From the NCBI GenBank assembly GCA_030628225.1, contig DAOVRJ010000140.1, positions 1 through 6,673 of the forward strand: a stretch of 6,673 nucleotides of DNA. The letters run 5' to 3'. The position numbers and the translations under genes are program-made. Positions 808 to 6,673 of the stretch are shown here, one piece after another; within the stretch, counting starts at the first letter, position 1; each line of letters opens with the position of its first letter. This DNA is from Candidatus Zixiibacteriota bacterium (GTDB lineage Bacteria > SM23-81). A model generated the notes under the pieces. That model saw only the letters and a program-made list of their open reading frames with translations, had not been told where the DNA came from and did no database searches.

Positions 808-824
808 CCTTATCAGTAATAAAA

Positions 825-845
825 CTGGATGCTGGATACTGGTTA
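825..845 (+). repeat. Short heptamer tandem array, 3 units
   Basis: CTGGATG, CTGGATA and CTGGTTA begin at 825, 832 and 839, an exact 7-bp period. The GGAT core is the one used in the longer heptamer array at 933-988. It lies just after the stop codon of the upstream gene. Confidence 0.6.
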
Positions 846-889
846 AAAACTTGCTTGTAGAAGACATTAAGCGGAATCCATAAAGTCTT

Positions 890-909
890 AATGTTGATAA
901 TCCAACATT
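890..909. repeat. Perfect 7-bp inverted repeat (possible hairpin)
   Basis: AATGTTG (890-896) and CAACATT (903-909) flank a 6-nt loop. A second pairing, CGGAAT (872-877) with ATTCCG (907-912), competes for the same right arm, so two alternative RNA folds are possible. No T-tract follows, so this is not called a terminator. Confidence 0.4.
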
Positions 910-932
910 CCGGAACAAGATTTTAAGATATA

Positions 933-988
933 GGATCAAGAACTGGGGATGGGGGATCGGGGAACGAGGATCAAGGATCGAGGATCCG
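933..988 (+). repeat. Degenerate heptamer tandem array, 8 units (consensus GGATCNN)
   Basis: Units start at 933, 940, 947, 954, 961, 968, 975 and 982, an unbroken 7-bp phase. They read GGATCAA, GAACTGG, GGATGGG, GGATCGG, GGAACGA, GGATCAA, GGATCGA, GGATCCG. The first four bases are conserved and the last three vary. The array lies in non-coding DNA, and a 7-bp period is not a multiple of three, so it is not a coding repeat. Confidence 0.8.
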
Positions 989-996
989 CCTTTCTC

Positions 997-1071
997 AACT
1001 CTCCCAACTCTCAACTCGCCAAACTCTTTCAACTCTCTGAACTCCCCCAACTCGCTCAACTCTCTAAACTT
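997..1071 (+). repeat. Degenerate nonamer tandem array, 9 units (consensus AACTCNNNN)
   Basis: AACTC (last unit AACTT) recurs at 997, 1006, 1013, 1022, 1031, 1040, 1049, 1058 and 1067. Spacing is 9 bp everywhere except one 7-bp step (1006 to 1013). The spacer bases are pyrimidine-rich and variable. The array follows the 933-988 heptamer array after an 8-bp gap. The reverse-complement version (GAGTT, 9-bp period) occurs beyond the downstream gene at 2167-2207. Confidence 0.8.
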
Positions 1072-1075
1072 CTTC

Positions 1076-1110
1076 CACGCCACACGCATTACACATCACG
1101 CAACACGCAA
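1076..1110 (+). repeat. Heptamer tandem array, 5 units (consensus CACGCAW)
   Basis: Units start at 1076, 1083, 1090, 1097 and 1104: CACGCCA, CACGCAT, TACACAT, CACGCAA, CACGCAA. The phase is an exact 7 bp. The array ends 22 bp before the ATG of the PorV-like gene, so it occupies the place of the expected promoter and leader. No Shine-Dalgarno sequence of useful strength is visible there. Confidence 0.7.
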
Positions 1111-2147: not shown

Positions 2148-2166
2148 ATTTTGGGGAAGAGATAGA

Positions 2167-2207
2167 GAGTTATGAGAGTTGAGAGAGTTAAGGGAGTTTA
2201 GCGAGTT
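2167..2207 (-). repeat. Nonamer tandem array, inverted orientation (GAGTT, 5 units)
   Basis: GAGTT starts at 2167, 2176, 2185, 2194 and 2203, an exact 9-bp period. This is the reverse complement of the AACTC core at 997-1071, so the PorV-like gene and its terminator lie between two inverted nonamer arrays. Confidence 0.75.
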
Positions 2208-2230
2208 GGGAGCTTCTTGAGCTCGTAGCT

Positions 2231-2259
2231 TGGAACTCGGAGCCCGGAGTGCCACTCCG
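2231..2259 (-). repeat. Heptamer array (GGANNNN, 3 units) ending in a small hairpin
   Basis: GGAACTC, GGAGCCC and GGAGTGC begin at 2232, 2239 and 2246. The last unit also forms CGGAGT (2245-2250) / ACTCCG (2254-2259) with a 3-nt loop. TGGAACTCGGA at 2231-2241 is the exact reverse complement of TCCGAGTTCCA at 2292-2302, linking it as an inverted copy to the next heptamer array. Confidence 0.6.
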
Positions 2260-2290
2260 TCCCCTTTTAATTCGATCTTAATTTCTTTCG

Positions 2291-2318
2291 TTCCGAGTTC
2301 CACGTTCCGCATTCCGCG
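2291..2318 (+). repeat. Heptamer array, 4 units (TTCCNNN)
   Basis: TTCCGAG, TTCCACG, TTCCGCA and TTCCGCG start at 2291, 2298, 2305 and 2312, an exact 7-bp period. GTTCCACGTTC (2297-2307) is the exact reverse complement of GAACGTGGAAC (2575-2585), across the GC-rich island. Confidence 0.7.
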
Positions 2319-2327
2319 CTCGGTGGC

Positions 2328-2366
2328 AACTCATTAACTCAGTAAACTCATTAAACTCTCCAACTT
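2328..2366 (+). repeat. Nonamer array, 5 units (AACTC core)
   Basis: AACTC (last unit AACTT) starts at 2328, 2336, 2345, 2354 and 2362, with spacings of 8, 9, 9 and 8 bp. Same core and orientation as 997-1071. It abuts a T6 run and a G7 run that mark the left edge of the GC-rich island. Confidence 0.65.
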
Positions 2367-2621: not shown

Positions 2622-2715
2622 GTCGAAATGCTTTATTCGTCAGTCGTTATAGCAATTCAGTGGTCTTTCCACGATCAACGATTCACGATCCCCGACTTAC
2701 CTAACGCATTTCGAC
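2622..2715. repeat. 10-bp perfect inverted repeat spaced by 74 bp
   Basis: GTCGAAATGC (2622-2631) is the exact reverse complement of GCATTTCGAC (2706-2715). The interior contains a heptamer array. No ORF of note lies inside. It could be the terminal repeats of a tiny non-autonomous element or simply chance. Confidence 0.4.
2671..2698 (-). repeat. Heptamer array, 4 units (ACGATNN)
   Basis: ACGATCA, ACGATTC, ACGATCC and CCGACTT follow an exact 7-bp phase (CGAT at 2672, 2679, 2686; CGAC at 2693). On the minus strand the units read GGATCGT, GAATCGT, TGATCGT, matching the GGATCNN consensus of 933-988 in inverted orientation. Confidence 0.6.
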
Positions 2716-3064: not shown

Positions 3065-4891
3065 ATGAAAGCGACTGCTATTATGTTCGTGCTGTCGATG
3101 GCCCTGCTATCGACAGCGGCATTGGCCGAGGTGCCCGGCCTGATCAACTACCAGGGCACACTCACCGACCAGTATGGCGTGGCGGCGGATACCACCCTTC
3201 CCATGACCTTTGCCATCTACACCGACTCCACGGGAGGAATGCCCATATGGAATGAGATGCAGCCGGTGGTGGTGGTGAGCCACGGGCTTTTCAACGTCCT
3301 GTTGGGCAGGGAAAATGCCATCTCAGACACGGTTTTCAATGGTCCCTCTTGTTGGCTGGAGATTCAGGTGGGGAGCGATCCGGAGATGCAGCCTCGGCAG
3401 CGAATTGTCGCTGTAGGATATGCCTTTCGGGCCGCAGAGGCCGACACTGCCGACTATAGCCGGAGTGCACTAGCTGTTGATGATGGCGACTGGACCATTG
3501 ATGGCGACGACATGTATTCTGCTGTACCGGGGAATGTCGGCATCGGGACGGCGAGTCCAACGAAGAGATTACATGTGTCCAATTCAACTTCCAGTTTTGG
3601 AATGTTCATGGTGGAAAATTCCAATTCCGGCGATCATGAAGCGACCATCGCATTTAAAGAGGGAAGCGACGCTGCTGGCGATGAGATTTGGGTTGCTGGA
3701 GTCGGGGGATGGGGCAATACCAACGACTTCATCATAGGCCGCGGTGCCACGAAGTTCTTGTTAACGCCAGCCGGAAATGTTGGCATCGGCACGGCGGATC
3801 CAGCCGAGATGTTGCATCTCCACAAATCCTCTGGAACACTCGGTGTGCGCATGTCAAGTGATTCCTTAAGCTATCAGTACTTGAATTTCGGAGCCACGAA
3901 CGGTTATGGAATAGGACGTGATCCTGGCGACAAGTTTTTCATCAACAGAGAAGAACCTCTTGGTTCTGGAGTGTTGAGGATTCTGACAATTCAATCAAAC
4001 GGCAACGTGGGCATCGGGACATTGAGTCCTGGGGCCAAACTGGAGGTGTCTTCTACTGAACCAAATATTTGGCTCAACCGCGGCAGCAGTTCTTATTCAG
4101 CAGACTTTAGTTTTACAACGGCTGGAAGTGCCGATTGGCAAATCTATACACCCGCGGGGGGAAGCGCCCTGAATATTGACAACCAAAGCTCTCAAACAGT
4201 GCAGACATTCCTGCAGAATGGCAACGTGGGCATCGGAGTGACGGATCCCGATGATAAATTAGAGGTGAATGGAAACATCCAACTAACAACTTCATGGCCC
4301 AATATCTCCGGCGAAAACCTCAAAATCTGGGGCAGCTCAGGATCAAACCTGCTTTTGCAGGCGACGACAACAGGAAACGTCGGTATCGGCACCGTGGCCC
4401 CGGGAGAAAAGCTCACCGTTCGCGGAAACATCCGCATAGAGAGCGTAGGCTCAGGTTTGCCCGTCGTTGAGCTGGGCGAAGGGCTTGATTATGCCGAGGG
4501 GTTCGATGTCTCGGCTGCGCAGGGGATCGGTCCCGGCTCGGTGCTGATCATCGACCCGGATAACCCAGGTAAATTGACGCTTTGTGACAATCCTTACGAC
4601 AGCAAAGTCGCCGGCATCGTGGCCGGAGCCAGGGGCCATGGCTCCGGCGTGCGTCTTGGACCAGGCCAGTTTGACCACGACGTGGCTCTGGCCGGGCGGG
4701 TGCATTGCAACGTGGACGCCACGGAGGCCGGAGTGGAGCCCGGGGATTTGCTGACCACCTCGGCCACACCGGGCCATGCCATGAAAGCCGCAGACCATGG
4801 ACGAGCGCAGGGCGCCATTCTGGGAAAAGCCATGGAAAGGCTGGAAAAAGGCCAAAAGGGGCAGATTCTGGTCCTGGTAACCCTTCAGTAG
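3065..4891 (+). CDS. Secreted tail-fibre-like repeat protein, 608 aa
   Basis: Signal peptide with cleavage expected after ALA21. Next comes an N-terminal domain (about 22-130) with the pattern INYQGTLTD...MTFAIYTDSTGG...IWNE...GLFNVLLG...WLEIQVG...PRQRIVAVGYAFRA, which I recognise as a recurring module of secreted fibre-like proteins in uncultured bacteria. The central region (about 150-465) carries five GNVGIG motifs with Gly at residues 156, 237, 313, 386 and 437, usually followed by a Pro and a short beta segment. The C-terminal domain (about 470-608) starts DYAEGFDV and contains GSVLIIDPD, KVAGIVAGA, GRVHCNVDA and GDLLTTSATPGHAMKA. It replaces the peptidase S74 chaperone often found on such fibres, and I see no S74 motif. 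Likely role: exported trimeric surface fibre or adhesin (inference). It is first in a probable operon. The centre is richer in AT than the ends (47% GC at 3841-3900, 73% at 4681-4740), suggesting a mosaic. Confidence 0.85.
   Translation: MKATAIMFVLSMALLSTAALAEVPGLINYQGTLTDQYGVAADTTLPMTFAIYTDSTGGMPIWNEMQPVVVVSHGLFNVLLGRENAISDTVFNGPSCWLEIQVGSDPEMQPRQRIVAVGYAFRAAEADTADYSRSALAVDDGDWTIDGDDMYSAVPGNVGIGTASPTKRLHVSNSTSSFGMFMVENSNSGDHEATIAFKEGSDAAGDEIWVAGVGGWGNTNDFIIGRGATKFLLTPAGNVGIGTADPAEMLHLHKSSGTLGVRMSSDSLSYQYLNFGATNGYGIGRDPGDKFFINREEPLGSGVLRILTIQSNGNVGIGTLSPGAKLEVSSTEPNIWLNRGSSSYSADFSFTTAGSADWQIYTPAGGSALNIDNQSSQTVQTFLQNGNVGIGVTDPDDKLEVNGNIQLTTSWPNISGENLKIWGSSGSNLLLQATTTGNVGIGTVAPGEKLTVRGNIRIESVGSGLPVVELGEGLDYAEGFDVSAAQGIGPGSVLIIDPDNPGKLTLCDNPYDSKVAGIVAGARGHGSGVRLGPGQFDHDVALAGRVHCNVDATEAGVEPGDLLTTSATPGHAMKAADHGRAQGAILGKAMERLEKGQKGQILVLVTLQ
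3091..3117 (+). promoter_or_regulatory. 9-bp perfect hairpin inside the signal-peptide coding region (copy 1)
   Basis: GCTGTCGAT (3091-3099) pairs with ATCGACAGC (3109-3117) across a 9-nt loop, starting 26 nt after the A of the start codon. In RNA a G-U pair (3090/3118) extends it. It could slow early elongation during export. The two LS-containing stretches of the signal peptide encode it, so chance is possible. Confidence 0.4.
3530..4393 (+). repeat. Five dispersed GNVGIG coding repeats within the fibre-like gene
   Basis: The Gly codons opening each GNVGIG motif begin at 3530, 3773, 4001, 4220 and 4373. Spacing is 81, 76, 73 and 51 residues. In each case the DNA is a close variant of GGNAAYGTNGGNATCGG. 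Between motifs the sequence diverges, consistent with beta-structured fibre segments joined by conserved turns. Confidence 0.85.
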
Positions 4892-6389: not shown

Positions 6390-6673
6390 ATGAGAGCGAC
6401 TGCTATTATGTTCGTGCTGTCGATGGCCCTGCTATCGACAGCGGCATTGGCCGAGGTGCCCGGCCTGATCAACTACCAGGGCACACTCACCGACCAGTAC
6501 GGCGTGGCGGCGGATACCACCCTCCCCATGACCTTTGCCATCTACACCGATTCGACGGGAGGAATGCCCATATGGAATGAGATGCAGCCGGTGGTGGTGG
6601 TGAGCCACGGGCTTTTCAACGTCCTGTTGGGCAGGGAAAATGCCATCTCAGACACGGTTTTCAATGGTCCCTC
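6390..6673 (+). CDS. Second secreted tail-fibre-like protein, 3'-truncated by window edge
   Basis: The frame is open from ATG 6390 to the window end, 94 full codons. The protein matches the first 94 residues of the 608-aa fibre-like protein except Lys2 to Arg. It has the same signal peptide (cleavage after ALA21) and the same N-terminal domain opening INYQGTLTD. The start is set by the Shine-Dalgarno at 6378-6385. It lies 78 bp after the stop of the peptidase-like gene and is probably the third gene of the operon. What follows this shared cassette cannot be seen. In a paralogous fibre family one would expect a different repeat region. Four of five differences being silent indicates recent duplication, gene conversion, or strong constraint on the protein. 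Confidence 0.9.
   Translation, partial: MRATAIMFVLSMALLSTAALAEVPGLINYQGTLTDQYGVAADTTLPMTFAIYTDSTGGMPIWNEMQPVVVVSHGLFNVLLGRENAISDTVFNGP

Follow-up and report, generated by a model that had tools for sequence, protein, structure and literature searches.

Phased degenerate tandem arrays in a Candidatus Zixiibacteriota genome are modules of a dispersed intergenic repeat mosaic

The locus and its arrays

The window analysed here, 6,673 nucleotides in length, is the whole of one contig (C71) of the 2.34-Mb, 306-contig genome of a Candidatus Zixiibacteriota bacterium. Its first gene has its nearest relatives in Latescibacteria, Zixibacteria, Calditrichota and similar groups. Three adjoining tandem arrays are situated in the gap between one gene, which ends at 807, and a PorV/PorQ-family gene (1133-2092; NF033709, E 3.6e-23 when read through), the latter interrupted by a single in-frame TAG (1619-1621). 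Recoding of TAG was considered and rejected, since TAG closes 80 of the 298 stop-terminated predicted genes; given that it is an ordinary stop in this genome, the interruption marks a pseudogene, a difference between strains or an error in the sequence. Farther along the contig, two gene starts (3065-3370 and 6390-6673) are nearly identical, the contig ending within the second copy, and the gene that starts in the first encodes a product whose recurring NVGIGT motifs recall trimeric fibre proteins.

Table 1. Repeat arrays and associated modules of the window
Feature	Position	Strand	Remarks
CTGGATN heptamer array, short	824-842	-	2.7 units; Tandem Repeats Finder (TRF); reverse of the ATCCAGN family, recurs genome-wide
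Dispersed linker stretch TTAAAAACTTGCTTGTAG...TTTTAAGATATA	842-932	+	two more copies, on contig C133 (93% and 87% identity)
GGATCNN heptamer array	933-988	+	8 units, no slip; direct reading, TRF, shuffles
Junction AGGATCCGCCTTTCTCA between GGATC and AACTC arrays	981-997	+	dispersed word
AACTCKCHN nonamer array	997-1071	+	9 units, last AACTT; one 2-bp slip
CACGCAW heptamer array	1076-1110	+	5 units; rare family, one other locus seen (L288)
GAGTTNNGM, nonamer array in reverse	2164-2207	-	left outer arm of nested inverted pair
GAGCTCG/GAACTCGG heptamer array	2219-2248	-	left inner arm; aligned with P1 element family
GTTCCGN heptamer array	2290-2321	+	right inner arm
AACTCNNNN nonamer array	2328-2360	+	right outer arm
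TCCACGA heptamer array	2668-2695	+	4 units; TRF; same style of word in G001

The three arrays at 933-1110 are real and not a product of chance. Their positions, their periods and the one 2-bp slip, all described in the initial annotation, were recovered by direct reading. TRF finds all three arrays (scores of 42, 72 and 37, in order of position), and in 1000 dinucleotide-preserving shuffles of 808-1132 a best score of 72 was never reached, 42 was reached in 11 and 37 in 16, with no shuffle yielding three arrays that each scored at least 37. The first array reads GGATCAA GAACTGG GGATGGG GGATCGG GGAACGA GGATCAA GGATCGA GGATCCG, with an exact GGATC in five of the eight units, and its family recurs in the genome with the common unit order CCA-CGA-CAA-CGG. 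The nonamer array reads AACTCTCCC AACTCTC AACTCGCCA AACTCTTTC AACTCTCTG AACTCCCCC AACTCGCTC AACTCTCTA AACTT, the slip residing in its second unit, which is 7 bp long. In the third array (CACGCCA CACGCAT TACACAT CACGCAA CACGCAA), four of the five units carry an exact CACGC.

The sequences around the arrays are themselves repeated. The stretch 800-1200 has 45 matching places in its own genome, and the junction at 981-997 occurs at 19 places in 755 kb (at most two mismatches), followed by AACTC arrays or other modules. One of the C133 copies of the linker stretch has a short GGATC part, separated from the AACTC array by a palindromic element. The arrays at 933-1110 lack an inverted-pair partner and fold no better than shuffles. 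Those at 2164-2360, by comparison, form a nested inverted pair, and 2155-2370 folds below shuffles on the two strands (z of -2.8 and -2.0). Next to this pair lies a GC-rich stretch (2359-2515; CACCGGCTGGCTATGGCC, GGCCGGCCGCCAGCCTCGC) that is another dispersed module, its words occurring about 12 times each in the noncoding DNA of the contigs read.

A genome-wide population of modules

The locus is one instance of an abundant class. In noncoding DNA of contigs that were not picked for arrays, we found 46 arrays of period 7 against 0.5 in shuffles and 28 of period 14 against 0.7; periods 5, 6 and 10-13 were near background and period 8 was slightly raised (8 versus 0.5). Over all contigs read, period 9 yielded 75 arrays against 1.7 in shuffles. 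Period-7 arrays numbered 244 against 2.8 in shuffled noncoding DNA, the arrays thus being tandem, mainly intergenic and present at many loci, as in heptameric STRR. These counts describe one metagenome-derived genome, in which copies are non-independent, contigs were partly picked for holding arrays, and coding was divided from noncoding DNA by a simple home-made gene caller. The families include AACTCKCHN, ATCCAGN, CGARWYT, GTTCCGM, ATTTTKC, CCCTAAY and GGATCNN. The number of units per array peaks at 3-6, which places the first two arrays of the locus at the long end of the range.

The comparison genomes comprised one relative from the same family and two from the same phylum. The nonamer pattern gave 119 overlapping matches in its own genome, at dozens of loci, and 12 in the same-family genome, against 0 for the reversed control. 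Neither of the two other phylum members had any; period-7 arrays in those two numbered 8 against 0.1 expected. The initial annotation had pointed to intergenic periodicity and to related genomes as places where a real element class should become visible. It did in both: intergenic DNA throughout the genome shows elevated identity at periods 7 and 9, and the nearest of the relatives also carries the nonamer. A viral origin was rejected, since 2.9 million viral contigs gave 8 matches to the nonamer pattern, the majority of them in different contexts.

An assembly artefact, or coding repeats mistaken for intergenic ones, would be a highly improbable source of the arrays. Seventy-one of 315 arrays do lie within 150 bp of contig ends, a zone holding 3.8% of bases, but dispersed repeats break short-read assemblies in the same way, most arrays are contig-internal and the nonamer family occurs in a second genome; as for coding repeats, a period of 7 does not keep the reading frame, and predicted genes contain few arrays of these families.

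Degenerate array families, of period 7 and in one case of period 9, are joined by fixed linkers that recur in the genome and are scattered over it, and the three arrays at 933-1110 are modules of this large, mosaic, intergenic repeat population. The P1 element illustrates the architecture: heptamer arms flank a conserved loop, and different modules abut it on both sides. Inverted pairing in a single polarity is frequent among the arrays: neighbouring arrays of the same family within 250 bp are inverted in that polarity 47 times and in the opposite one twice. Palindromes with periodic arms number 116 in 755 kb, or 34 once those sharing a 14-mer are removed; 23 of the inverted pairs come from the GTTCC family and are mostly P1, and since many pairs are copies of one another, the independent cases amount to about five families. 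Arms match at the level of the family. Base-paired palindromes maintained by compensatory change were tried as an explanation and dropped, because in-register matching barely exceeded that of unit-permuted arms in a test biased in favour of the idea.

A palindromic element of about 105 bp (L010 7790-7893; CTGTCATGCCTGCG...GCCGGAATGACA) is present in 13-14 copies beside arrays of the GGATC or AACTC type and is similar to a miniature inverted-repeat element. REP elements mobilised by RAYT would go with an expanded set of Y1 transposase genes flanked by the repeats. The genome has four Y1_Tnp genes, a number not above that in relatives; of the two such loci read, one (L304) has heptamer arrays alongside and the other does not.

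Fixed cores, free positions and possible exchange of units

Within a unit, a fixed core and a fixed period are combined with one to three nearly free positions. Constraint was measured on nonamers chosen for their exact flanking cores, with no condition set on the units themselves. Over 183 such units, deviations from consensus at positions 1-9 numbered 4, 2, 3, 3, 2, 53, 8, 74 and 111, so that each base of the AACTC core deviates in 1-2% of units and position 9 in 61%; counts on 171 distinct contexts were nearly the same (4, 2, 3, 3, 2, 49, 7, 67 and 107). Steps between successive AACTC cores, among those of 5-11 bp, are exactly 9 bp in 263 of 295 cases. In 52 ATCCAGN units, positions 1-3 and 6 are invariant and position 5 is kept in 51, position 4 varies in 15 and position 7 is near random; constraint is less sharp in the ATTTT family. 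The early observation of a steady phase with some bases left free is borne out, in a class that is real and genome-wide.

The units show little or no extra likeness to their neighbours. Nonamer identity is 0.787 within and 0.799 between arrays, all 26 of the listed four-unit nonamer arrays differ from each other, and neighbouring units are no more alike than shuffled ones. Among ATCCAGN units, neighbours are even less alike than expected (identical in 4 of 35 cases versus 8.4, P = 0.014) and alternate units are more alike, in both cases from one of several tests on modest numbers. Next to a linker kept at 94%, a value biased upward because the linker was also the search key, the variable positions agree at 0.57 versus 0.42 for random units, which implies that much unit content has changed since the copies parted. 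In the GGATC and GTTCC families, unit order is kept between copies, pointing for these to copying and not shuffling.

These patterns weigh against replication slippage in steps of 7 or 9 bp followed by neutral drift, which would make the arrays old, decayed microsatellites with no function. Slippage has been proposed for heptamers, which in many bacteria are the most frequent type of long simple repeat, according to Mrazek 2007 as cited in PMC4679880, and some tandem duplication is evident here in 36-bp and 14-bp higher-order copies: at L019 (4493-4578) a nonamer array is a four-unit (36-bp) higher-order repeat, so duplication of several units at once also happens. Uniform drift over the nonamer positions is nevertheless rejected (chi-square P about 1e-93), and a fixed core with fixed spacing and free positions is not what uniform neutral drift produces. 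The near-identical units of slippage-type heptameric STRR were not found, free positions being near random and neighbours no more alike than other units, and likeness within arrays does not exceed that between them. The suspicion that plain slippage is inadequate is thus borne out, and slippage with drift, already disfavoured, is improbable. The companion suggestion of old arrays drifting in place does not fare as well: nonamer units look exchangeable between arrays and the arrays are pieces of a dispersed mosaic, often in inverted pairs, so such drift is not the simplest history.

The same constraint could be read as the work of a protein. The cores would then be putative sites for a DNA- or RNA-binding protein (nucleoid-associated, a global regulator or similar), set in tandem at fixed spacing; purifying selection would hold core and period while other bases drift. 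Strong positional constraint, fixed spacing and the peak at 3-6 units agree with this, as does the proposal that the paired tandem repeats of Geobacter metallireducens are sites for IHF/HU or a global regulator (PMC2700814). Several unrelated cores, however, would demand several proteins, and unit content shifts even beside a kept linker. We regard such recognition arrays as a real possibility, although an unlikely one.

Gene context

At the locus itself, the arrays do fill the place where the promoter of the PorV-like gene would be expected, as initially described, but the class as a whole avoids such places. Codirectional regions hold 2.42 arrays per kb, convergent regions 2.07 and divergent regions 1.14; arrays also become sparser over the final fifth leading up to a start codon. 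The idea of a promoter or leader role was rejected: a sigma-70 scan for a promoter found nothing, and the avoidance of divergent regions and of the bases before starts makes a promoter role for the PorV-like gene unlikely. No effect specific to that gene is indicated at the locus. The same thinning counts against recognition arrays, and the gene context is easier to reconcile with tolerated or 3'-end elements than with promoter elements.

An RNA-level element is a quite doubtful alternative, in which pyrimidine arrays would act as Rho utilization sites or inverted arrays as transcript-end hairpins. The segment 990-1110 (43% C, 6% G), whose sense strand repeats a cytosine-rich core at 9-base intervals, comes close to the RUT site description in PMC6407284, and it alone has the C-rich, G-poor composition with regular sense cytosines; P1-type palindromes, for their part, fold strongly and lie mostly 60-160 bp beyond a stop codon. 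Yet most nonamers located past gene ends have the antisense orientation (40 antisense, 16 sense), a strand bias opposite to that required, on which ground we rejected the arrays as general Rho sites. Furthermore, 933-1110 folds like shuffles and in-register complementarity of inverted arms is marginal. A structured RNA at 933-1110 was likewise rejected, with no Rfam match and no excess folding.

Likeliest origin

The explanation that we consider likeliest, and hold tentatively, is that the arrays are copied modules of a dispersed intergenic mosaic whose units are shuffled by core-guided recombination. Modules may have spread by copying, through recombination or a mobilising enzyme acting in trans. 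Dispersed arrays would exchange units through recombination or template switching with the shared core as guide; units whose core or spacing is damaged would drop out of exchange, and as faulty units leave, core and phase would persist while the other bases saturate. The core may be kept by recombination or by a protein. Exchange between arrays is something we infer from a single genome. Against this reading stand the unit order kept in the GGATC and GTTCC families and the small number of Y1 transposase genes, and neither defined ends nor target-site duplications nor a mobilising enzyme were identified. Protein binding and recombination, on which the initial annotation had speculated, are each a possible role.

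Relation to known repeats

Bacterial heptamer repeats have been known for decades, with no agreed origin or function, and the present class is a degenerate, multi-family version of those known from cyanobacteria, Xanthomonas and Beggiatoaceae. A fixed core with free positions and no special likeness between neighbours is not predicted by the usual slippage account, and a genome with abundant multi-family repeats constrained at the level of single bases allows a direct test of slippage, recombination and recognition against each other.

The known system most like it is formed by the paired tandem multicopy sites of Geobacter metallireducens (hepta- and octanucleotides, GTTGCTYN and MTYCTGA; PMC2700814), which share degenerate 7-8 bp tandem units, free positions, 3-5 units and dispersal. 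Those sites form opposite-strand pairs at variable distance, as do many loci here and the arrays at 2164-2360, whereas 933-1110 is unpaired; the sequences differ, and neither a period-9 family nor multi-family mosaics are part of the description there, in which the IHF/HU or global regulator role is an untested proposal. Cyanobacterial heptanucleotide STRR, or long simple sequence repeats, are likewise of period 7, intergenic and in many copies, but their one or few units are said to recur as near-perfect copies, unlike the several degenerate families, the period-9 family and the mosaics with inverted pairs found here.

GGGNATC repeats of Xanthomonas and Nostoc (PMC4692102) are also dispersed intergenic heptamers that prefer about four units and are fewer between divergent genes, and TRF gives GGGGATC as the consensus for part of 933-988. 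They supply four G-tracts for a quadruplex, whereas 933-988 has only three tracts of at least three G (945-948, 951-955 and 959-962), for which reason a quadruplex there was rejected; nor are the remaining families of this genome rich in G. TAACTGA repeats of Beggiatoaceae, Cyanobacteria and Bacteroidetes (PMC4679880) are intergenic heptamer arrays scattered over phyla, but with one exact unit mostly right upstream of starts, in contrast to the several degenerate, start-avoiding units here. The BrickBuilt MITE of Porphyromonas gingivalis (PMC4596501) resembles the present modules as a dispersed intergenic element with internal tandem repeats and fixed flanks; it has a 23-bp unit, one family and defined inverted-repeat ends, while here no defined ends were identified.

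Beyond the phylum, small samples (80 loci and two pattern searches) gave a weaker excess of period-7 arrays, 20 versus 5.3 in the 80 loci, and CTGGATN in 11 of 290 genomes versus 2 for the reversed control, which is only suggestive of a word common to several phyla. It is conceivable, if rather unlikely, that core words in phased arrays with free bases between them, often in fixed-polarity inverted pairs and kept by core recognition or core-guided recombination, make up a wider class with words such as CTGGATN recurring in unrelated phyla. Degenerate CTGGATN/ATCCAGN heptamer arrays, also in inverted pairs, were seen in two genomes of other groups, one of them a Melioribacter (L125 1638-1773 and L240 1497-1584).
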